From contig NZ_ATVJ01000001.1 in NCBI RefSeq assembly GCF_000420665.1, forward strand, positions 1,116,001-1,180,000: a stretch of 64,000 bases of DNA. The letters run 5' to 3'. The stretch comes from Ponticaulis koreensis DSM 19734 (GTDB taxonomy: Bacteria; Pseudomonadota; Alphaproteobacteria; Caulobacterales; Hyphomonadaceae). The notes beneath the pieces were generated by a model. That model did no database searches and was not told where the DNA came from. It worked only from the letters and a program-made list of their open reading frames with translations. A program made the position numbers and the translations under genes. Shown in pieces: positions 5,878 through 20,895 of this stretch. How positions within the stretch are numbered: position 1 is the first letter of the stretch; each line of letters opens with the position of its first letter.

Positions 5878-5902
5878 GAACCCGTTTCGGATAAGAATTG
5901 AG

Positions 5903-5929
5903 AAAGAGCGGCTTCGGCCGCTCTTTTTT
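5903..5929 (+). terminator. Rho-independent terminator of the Oar-like receptor
   Basis: Ten-base-pair stem AAAGAGCGGC/GCCGCTCTTT with a TTCG tetraloop, running into six T residues. One of the clearest terminators in the window. Confidence 0.93.
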
Positions 5930-5935
5930 GTTTTG

Positions 5936-5978
5936 CTCTCGCGAAATTTCATTTCGCATAGAGCGCGCTCAAGGCTGT
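5936..5978 (+). repeat. Dispersed 43-nt hairpin element, copy A
   Basis: A stem-loop (CTCT, GCGAAAT, loop TTC, ATTTCGC, AT, AGAG) followed by the sequence GCGCTCAAGGCTGT. The same 43 nt, without any gap, occurs on the minus strand at 20732-20774. The last 24 nt differ at one base only, while the stem differs at paired positions so that pairing is kept. Both copies lie shortly after a gene's terminator in the gene's own direction. Further hairpins follow to about 6080. The remaining stretch up to aguA (6080-6204) shows nothing I recognise. Read in frame, the shared part gives RIERAQGC, with a synonymous difference, but I consider it non-coding. Confidence 0.6.
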
Positions 5979-6204
5979 CTTTCTTACAGAGGCCGAACGG
6001 CAGACGGGCGTATGCCCGCTCTCGCGGAGCCGCGGCGCGGCGTGAGCGCAAATTTTGCGAACGAAAGTTCGCGAGAAGAAACGAAATTACCACCCAAACG
6101 ACTGTGCAGGCGCAGGACGGTAAACGAAGTGCACAACGCGTCCGAGCACATACCGAACATGTAATTTCACTTGCGCTTGTAGCGTTTAGTGATATGTGCG
6201 CGAA

Positions 6205-19778: not shown

Positions 19779-20636
19779 TTGATGACCAGCTTATCCCCAT
19801 TTACGCCTGAATATTTCGAAAAGCTGGAAGCGTTTGTTCTGAACGACCTGCGCCGTGAAGGAATGACCTTCTTCGATGAGGCCTGGCCGCTAATGTTCGA
19901 AGCTATCGGCGATCGCCATGGTGATGAGAATGTTCGAATAAAAAAGCGTTCTCAGCATTTATGGCGGGCAATTGGTGCGATGCGCCGGCACGACATTCCA
20001 GTGCCGGAGAGCTATATGCAGGAGGCCTTAACCGCCAATGAGGAGATAGAGCGGCTTCCTGTATTTTTTGCGCTTGGCAATAGAGATTACGAAAAAGCGG
20101 TGGCAGGCCTTTTAGCTGCTCAGGGAAAAACGATAATCGAAAGGTTCAAGATCGATGTTGGATTGTTCCTGAAAAAAAAATCTGAACGGCTCTATCGAAA
20201 TCGCGGCCCGAAAAAGGATAAAAGCGTAAAAAAGGGAACGAAAGCGTTTTCTGAACTGATGCCGATCTTTGCCTTCTCAGACCTTACCATTACACGGTCG
20301 ACAACGAGAATGTTTGAGGTGGTTCACGCGTCGGGCCGTTCCGGGGCGCGGATCGAACACGATATCGATTATTTATCGGAAATGTATCCGCAGCCGACAA
20401 TATTCTTTTATCCCACAGAAGGAAGCCGTTTGGGCTATCAACTGCATCGACTTACAATGGACCTCCTGCCGCTATCCATGCATCCATTAACGCTGACGCT
20501 AAATGGATTTTCAGACGAAGAGAAACTTCACGTTCGGATACTGCAGTTTTATTGCACGATGCGCATCCCAGGTATCATTGCGCGGTTTCTGACCGAGATT
20601 TCTTCCGAGGGCGAACTGAATCTTCCTGATGTTTAA
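19779..20636 (+). CDS. Unrecognised 285-residue protein
   Basis: No family recognised. A soluble protein without signal peptide, rich in charged residues, with a Lys-rich stretch (LFLKKKSERLYRNRGPKKDK) at about residues 125-145 and hydrophobic segments such as MPIFAFSDLTI and TIFFYPTEGSRLGY. Sampled lines have about 42-45 % G+C, much lower than the neighbouring opgG or nrdA, and include a run of nine A in the coding sequence (near 20171). The start could be Met1 or Met2. It is convergent with nrdA and stands alone. Together with the gene at 14174 it brackets the segment that separates nrdA from nrdB. Confidence 0.7.
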   Translation: MMTSLSPFTPEYFEKLEAFVLNDLRREGMTFFDEAWPLMFEAIGDRHGDENVRIKKRSQHLWRAIGAMRRHDIPVPESYMQEALTANEEIERLPVFFALGNRDYEKAVAGLLAAQGKTIIERFKIDVGLFLKKKSERLYRNRGPKKDKSVKKGTKAFSELMPIFAFSDLTITRSTTRMFEVVHASGRSGARIEHDIDYLSEMYPQPTIFFYPTEGSRLGYQLHRLTMDLLPLSMHPLTLTLNGFSDEEKLHVRILQFYCTMRIPGIIARFLTEISSEGELNLPDV

Positions 20637-20731
20637 CAATCCGATGCTTTGCGGTGTGTGGGGTGCATTCCGCGTAGCAATGCACCAGAAACCACCGGCG
20701 CACATGAGTTGGTGCTTCGCTCATCCCTGCA

Positions 20732-20774
20732 ACAGCCTTGAGCGCGTTCTATGCGACGCCACACGTCGCTAGAA
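20732..20774 (-). repeat. Dispersed 43-nt hairpin element, copy B
   Basis: Minus-strand copy of the element at 5936-5978. Stem: TTCT, GCGACGT, loop GTG, GCGTCGC, AT, AGAA, then CGCGCTCAAGGCTGT. Compared with copy A the outer C-G pair is T-A, and two inner A-T pairs are C-G and G-C, so pairing is kept while sequence changes. It lies about 90 nt beyond the nrdA terminator, in the direction of nrdA. Beyond it a second 8-bp hairpin (GGTGCATT/AATGCACC) is visible toward 20665. Confidence 0.6.
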
Positions 20775-20865
20775 CAAACGAAGGTAAAGCATAGTTCTGG
20801 TAGGTTTTTATGGAACCGGTTTTGCGTCTTCACGGGAATTTACGGGTCGAAAGAAAGACCGCGCA

Positions 20866-20895
20866 CAATAAAAAAGCGGGCCGTAGCCCGCTTTT
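20866..20895 (-). terminator. Rho-independent terminator of nrdA
   Basis: Ten-base-pair stem AAAAGCGGGC/GCCCGCTTTT with a 4-nt loop, continuing into TTTATT on the minus strand. Confidence 0.9.

Follow-up and report, generated by a model that had tools for sequence, protein, structure and literature searches.

The window analyzed here, a 64,000-nucleotide stretch of the Ponticaulis koreensis DSM 19734 genome, carries two copies of a short palindromic repeat. Copy 1 lies downstream of a gene for an outer-membrane TonB-type barrel protein (PF25183, PF13620, PF00593) and copy 2 downstream of nrdA, which encodes the large ribonucleotide reductase subunit (PF02867, PF00317); these Pfam domains fit the labels, Oar-like receptor and nrdA, given in the original prediction. 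The two loci hold the following features.

5899..5930 (+): hairpin resembling a terminator, behind the upstream barrel gene and directly 5' of copy 1 (terminator scan, by consensus match alone)
5935..5978 (+): copy 1 of the palindromic repeat (27-copy alignment, pair counts, model match of 76.7 bits, DNA fold)
5965..5978 (+): 14-nt tail of copy 1, GCGCTCAAGGCTGT (column conservation drops sharply after the tail)
5987..6053 (+): member of a second repeat family (~66 nt), within the copy-1 composite (matches of query 588-654 elsewhere)
6057..6075 (-): inverted hairpin half closing the composite 5935-6075 (composite sequence and fold, z -3.72)
20634..20710 (-): further repeat adjoining copy 2 (query 491-567 also matches beside several P0001-family genes)
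20732..20775 (-): copy 2 of the palindromic repeat (alignment, model match of 64.3 bits, DNA fold)
20870..20893 (-): hairpin and T-run behind the ribonucleotide reductase gene (by eye; absent from the terminator scan's list)

The 43 nt at 5936-5978 (+) and 20732-20774 (-) align free of gaps, with 33 of 43 nt identical and one difference within the last 24, and the stem changes are those that had been predicted: an outer C-G pair becomes T-A, two inner pairs change on both sides and one becomes G-T. The predicted 43-nt pair stops one base short of the structure, whose outer helix begins at 5935 and 20775. In copy 1, helix 1 (5935-5939/5960-5964) and helix 2 (5941-5947/5951-5957) are separated by a bulge (5940 and 5958-5959), the loop occupies 5948-5950 and the tail (5965-5978) is unpaired; the corresponding parts of copy 2 are helix 1 (20775-20771/20750-20746), helix 2 (20769-20763/20759-20753), the loop (20762-20760) and the tail (20745-20732). 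As single-stranded DNA, copy 1 folds into the consensus hairpin (z -2.38; 6 of 200 shuffles are equally good), and the fold of copy 2 differs from it only slightly (z -3.76). Both copies had been placed behind terminators. This is borne out for copy 1, which begins right after the T-run of a hairpin on the scan's list (1 found versus a shuffle mean of 0.7), whereas the hairpin-plus-T stretch lying ~95 nt before copy 2 was recognized by eye and is not on that list.

Copy 1 opens a composite (5935-6075) that also includes the member of the second repeat family; that family has matches at three other places in this genome, and relatives hold additional ones. The composite is present in the genus relative G151, where the counterpart of copy 1 differs by one compensatory pair and one break, and is rearranged in G155. 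It is missing from the aligned loci of G150 and G153, in which the terminator and the neighboring genes remain, and G154 has a different sequence there. At the nrdA locus, the match to this genome ends before copy 2 in each of six relatives; in G151 it resumes 2 kb further on, with a gene of the P0001 family (described below) in between. In this genome, the nrdA locus has no P0001 copy. Judging from these alignments, both copies of the palindrome look recent on the scale of the genus.

Architecture and distribution of the repeat family

An alignment of 27 copies, 23 from this genome and 4 from Hyphomonadaceae UBA1849, defines the unit. It consists of a T-rich leader, a 5-bp helix 1 (GYTCT/AGARC), a C / AT internal bulge, a helix 2 of ~6-7 bp with a small loop and, closing the unit, a 14-nt tail that hardly varies, GCGCTCARGGCTGY. 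Conservation ends abruptly after the tail and fades gradually in the leader, and the conserved unit measures ~59 nt with the leader.

The element had been described as a two-copy one, which is true of the window, where the core pattern has 2 matches versus 0 in 100 shuffles, but not of the genome. Searching the whole genome with the core, as had been suggested, gave 23 matches at up to 3 mismatches versus 0 for a reversed control, and a covariance model built from the 27 copies gives at least 43 matches at E<=0.01 and at least 48 at E<=1 in this 3.4 Mb genome. Since 150 candidates were scored per genome (150 of 2298 here), the model counts are lower bounds. The relatives, too, hold many copies: all seven genomes of the genus are positive, with at least 43, 9, 52, 20, 14, 19 and 34 matches (at least 191 in total).

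Across the order, matches at E<=0.01 occur in 28 of 150 genomes and 8 of 32 genera, this genome included, and many of the matching genomes carry a different head hairpin, up to ~95 nt, on the same tail. An even sample of the class (385 genomes, stricter filters, E<=0.001) yields three matching genomes, namely this one, one of the same family and one of another family. A 16-mer scan of genome contigs returned at least 117 stretches, largely from unrelated phyla, among which those of Hyphomonadaceae UBA1849 and UBA5336 were useful. Rfam at gathering thresholds matched only tRNA in the window and had no match for the palindromic repeat.

Two further observations concern arrangement. Tail-to-tail dimers lie near both ends of contig C2 (L160:1501-1645 and G000:C2:252-396) with similar flanks, and matching dimers occur in G151 and G155. 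A repeat of another type, found at L016:1932 (reverse strand), in the L012 gene and in L357, is translated in ORFs as IPAQAGI or WIPASAGI and presumably resembles the CGTC-type REPs; in L016, its hairpin bears the tail of the palindrome family, GCGCTCAAGGCTGT.

Placement and orientation

Called genes flank 84 distinct copies on both sides, and of these 31 lie between convergent, 44 between tandem (27 sense versus 17 antisense) and 9 between divergent genes. The gene caller is home-made (dicodon score) and missed several P0001 genes; setting 8 P0001 rows aside by hand leaves 27 convergent copies, 40 tandem ones (24 in sense and 16 in antisense orientation) and 9 divergent ones. The copies are mostly near the 3' ends of genes, as passages of PMC3733652 describe for REPs, and by our own gene calls they share the REP placement of many copies mostly between convergent or tandem genes.

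A bias in orientation with respect to replication is only suggestive. In this genome the tail strand lies on the G-rich, presumably leading, strand at 21 of 26 loci (p 0.0025) with two tail-to-tail dimers left out, and at 23 of 30 with both included; these counts leave out contig C4, which has no skew sample. In the relatives, where the counts include orthologues and P0001 copies, 34 of 51 have this orientation in skewed windows (p 0.024), as do 3 of 5 in weak ones. Such numbers would suit a polar chromosome-organizing site, KOPS- or Chi-like, whose orientation follows replication. However, the count falls to 12 of 17 (p 0.14) without the P0001 loci, gene bases themselves lie on the G-rich strand at a fraction of 0.58 here and 0.57 in the relatives, and a long hairpin unit that forms clusters and dimers is ill-suited to a simple polar site, which makes this explanation very improbable.

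In Caulobacter, an intergenic repeat is known that has methylation sites (GANTC) within it. A link of this type was rejected for the present family, as GANTC occurs in only 2 of 59 distinct-stem copies.

Compensatory change in the stem

That the hairpin is maintained via compensatory change is strongly supported. Standard pairs make up 91.9% of the pair cells in the 27 copies versus 80.4% in shuffles, 7 of 12 pairs have changed on both sides (a number that 3 of 500 shuffles reach) and the covariation score is reached by 0 of 500. In 140 distinct copies, the alignment of which was fitted to the model and so leans towards structure, 92.2% of cells are standard, 11 of 12 pairs have changed on both sides (4 of 500 shuffles), doubly changed cells number 259 versus 70.6, and the covariation score is likewise reached by 0 of 500 shuffles. 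The covariation sought as a check on the original prediction is thereby seen in both sets. Flank-matched loci between species, some of them paralogous or reused, contain 705 unchanged, 49 compensatory and 38 broken pair cells, together with 19 wobble steps and 4 other changes.

It is possible to read these compensatory changes as selection on a structured RNA, a 3'-UTR or read-through hairpin whose single-stranded tail would bind a protein or partner RNA and which would stabilize or process transcripts. The strong covariation in both sets, the invariant unpaired tail, the placement near gene 3' ends and the sense-to-antisense count of 27 to 17 among tandem copies are all consistent with such a role. 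If this strand functioned as RNA, however, single changes would be expected as G-U more than as A-C, and no such wobble signature is seen in 59 distinct-stem copies, which contain 13 G-T versus 20 A-C (p 0.30; a weak test, with 33 informative cells). For this count, 30 of 150 rows (the P0001 family) were set aside, a row was dropped if its length fell outside 45-62 nt or if more than 6 of its arm letters were gapped, and identical stems were collapsed. The unfiltered mismatches of 140 non-independent rows (56 A-C, 21 G-T and 63 other) would, if anything, favor the other strand. Moreover, 40 of the 140 distinct copies fall within script-called ORFs, 20 sense and 20 antisense, and Rfam offers no match. 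We therefore consider a structured RNA unlikely.

A process acting on DNA appears to fit the pattern. In the G155 version of the composite, the segment between two inverted hairpins is reversed, with the hairpins and flanks in place. Arm homogenization and spacer inversion are among the outcomes of template switching described in passages of PMC8604942, and parts of PMC8794818 indicate that stems can be maintained by it. The present family shares with template-switch mutation at inverted repeats, as portrayed in those portions of the two sources, multi-base compensatory changes and the reversal of a segment between inverted repeats; template switching is nonetheless a mutational process and no element, and can explain upkeep but not spread. 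Judging from this pattern, both the reversed spacer and the wobble counts agree with a process at the level of DNA. Of the earlier claim that selection acts on a folded hairpin, the compensatory change stands, but a folded RNA is not needed, given that wobble pairs are not enriched and that template switching can give rise to such a pattern.

Copies inside genes

The original prediction had raised a coding origin, as the shared part also reads RIERAQGC. One set of in-gene copies belongs to P0001 (query 210 aa), a protein family with no Pfam match. Of 105 genomes from the bacterial family, 7 have P0001 matches, these being the 7 of this genus. This genome has 14 P0001 matches at 11 places, some of them fragments. 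Many members have, in a linker, one or two units read as VCSRxPxxxIERAQGC, and some have none; the second unit amounts to a 51-nt presence/absence between one double-unit and four single-unit genes. All such in-gene readings are ORFs and hence predicted proteins. The P0001 gene at L005:1192-1824 (-) and its paralogs (L246-L275) have a linker that collects in-frame palindromic repeats, and most P0001 copies compared share ~50 nt upstream and ~100 nt downstream.

The recurrence of VCSRxPxxxIERAQGC in P0001 paralogs, a family with 14 matches at 11 places in this genome, could be taken to mean that the DNA is conserved as the code for a peptide module. An examination of 28 copies shows, however, that other genes read this DNA from the antisense strand, as SSPERVLCDPxGSREQ, or in different sense frames. 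The loop also varies from 2 to 6 nt across copies and so shifts the frame, and it is the DNA pairing that covaries. Because the predicted reading frame is not conserved across copies, a conserved peptide in place of pairing is already contradicted and almost certainly wrong. The RIERAQGC peptide is real as a predicted product, yet it is one of several readings: the coding side of the prediction holds insofar as RIERAQGC is read in a multi-copy gene family and copies occur in ORFs, but what is conserved is not the peptide.

A tail-sharing variant lies in frame in the gene for UvrC, where it reads TALSATHREGxAEAGGQNK. All 31 genomes searched have UvrC, and its RRRF-to-DGG stretch was read at 30 loci. 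This stretch is 117, 116, 110, 161 and 190 aa long in five genomes of the genus and 46 aa in the sixth. Of the 24 loci from outside the genus, 16 have a stretch of 28-39 aa and 4 have one of 52-94 aa; in three other rows the read began at an upstream motif, and the last row had no match. The tail-sharing variant occurs in 3 of 6 genus UvrC proteins, and the remaining long linkers hold other segments. Residues 302-395 of this UvrC fall between two adjacent aligned blocks of a solved UvrC (3c65), and Pfam splits the UvrC nuclease domain at the linker (PF08459). The ~117 aa linker of this UvrC (L345:411-2048 (-), G000:C1:1909638-1911272) is made up of several repeat segments, the set of which differs in each genome of the genus. 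Palindromes in excinuclease genes are known, as passages of PMC3733652 list uvrA and uvrB among genes with REPs and name REPs inside repair genes for several bacteria.

Mobility and relation to known repeats

Insertion of the units is suggested by presence and absence in diverged relatives and paralogs, and some unit gains would fit tandem duplication. Among the candidates listed, three of which were followed, no clean one-to-one empty site with intact flanks was found: L007 versus L302/L288 fits tandem duplication, and L311 versus L142 has different repeats at one place. A MITE would be expected to have terminal inverted repeats and a target-site duplication; here the unit ends are not inverted repeats of each other, and the loci compared offered no clean empty site at which a duplication could be read.

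One candidate source of mobility is the RAYT (Y1_Tnp) proteins of these genomes, which would make the family a REP family mobilized by them. RAYTs act on hairpins, according to parts of PMC6006769, and Y1_Tnp genes are present in 5 of 7 genus genomes, with 0-2 in each. Strong copies lie ~0.75 kb from the gene at the matching loci L352 and L353, and weaker family hits occur at L352 and, in this genome, at L142. Yet strong copies are near only these 2 of 7 Y1_Tnp loci, gene number (0-2) has no visible relation to repeat copy number (at least 9-52), and two genomes with no Y1_Tnp match, one of them only 87% complete, hold at least 14 and at least 20 copies. In this genome, the repeats that directly flank the two Y1_Tnp genes are different ones, an inverted 56-nt one (L141:1292-1347 and 1948-2003) and a direct 19-nt one with GTAGGGTGGATTAG (L142:1355-1373 and 1918-1936), and the family has no GTAG tag. 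RAYT mobilization is thus not supported as a simple answer, and we judge it quite improbable. Among the Y1_Tnp genes of the seven genus genomes, no mobilizer was found.

The family shares with the GTAG and CGTC superfamilies of REPs, as characterized in passages of PMC3733652, short palindromes in many copies between convergent or tandem genes, dimers and some occurrences in repair genes. It differs in its two-step bulged hairpin and conserved 14-nt tail; a GTAG or CGTC unpaired tag at the palindrome end is absent from the 27-copy consensus (bulge C / AT, tail as above), and the repeat does not directly flank the Y1 genes of this genome. Mosaics and inverted unit pairs, of which the composite at window copy 1 is an example, are also features of BIMEs and REPINs (parts of PMC3116915 and PMC6006769), but here single units are common and the partner repeats belong to other families.

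In-frame palindromic insertions are best known from Rickettsia. The Rickettsia palindromic elements (RPEs) likewise are many-copy palindromic repeats found in frame in unrelated genes (portions of PMC10969869 and PMC3733652), and the present repeat appears in frame in several predicted genes. The RPE unit, however, is ~150 bp (part of PMC10969869) as against ~59 nt with leader here; RPE descriptions, as far as those portions go, further set the two apart by sequence, and the present family has a fixed 14-nt tail and resides in larger Hyphomonadaceae genomes. Literature searches on palindromic or intergenic repeats of Hyphomonas and on in-frame palindromic insertions gave no title naming this family among the matches listed, and those on REPs and RAYTs in alphaproteobacteria found nothing. 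The family is a real, lineage-restricted palindromic repeat family, similar to REPs and RPEs, that lacks the REP tag and RAYT association and the RPE length.

Proposed origin and maintenance

We propose that the family is probably a non-autonomous DNA palindrome in dispersed copies, similar in kind to REPs and RPEs. Its palindromic form would be maintained at the level of DNA, and it would not be primarily an RNA element. The DNA-level part of this proposal rests on the reversed spacer in G155 and the lack of G-T enrichment. In such a scheme, a single strand would fold, its structure and tail would be recognized, and an activity provided in trans would copy the folded strand or insert it at another site. 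The stems would stay paired through template switching from one arm to the other, which could also reverse spacers. Several frames of the unit are open and the units lie in presumably tolerant loops, which may be why copies in genes persist; the host protein would gain ~16-21 residues per unit. It is also conceivable that the hairpin strand becomes exposed on the lagging-strand template, whose sequence is that of the leading strand, with a parallel in IS200/IS605 (described in part of PMC6006769).

A more far-reaching version, which we regard as possible but doubtful, is that of a palindromic DNA parasite with no recognizable dedicated transposase, which would spread on single-stranded DNA at the replication fork, be kept palindromic by template switching instead of RNA-level selection and supply in-frame protein modules, including one in the UvrC nuclease domain, in genomes of free-living size. 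If true, it would offer a natural setting in which to follow how palindromes give rise to insertions in proteins.

These data describe a separate in-frame palindrome family in Hyphomonadaceae, with sister species close enough for locus comparison. Since wobble counts and spacer reversal are in line with a process on DNA, the family can be used to ask if covariation in a hairpin is always a sign of selection at the RNA level, and it carries a warning that covariation alone can make a DNA repeat resemble a regulatory RNA. It also offers natural in-frame inserts in enzymes such as UvrC that can be assayed.
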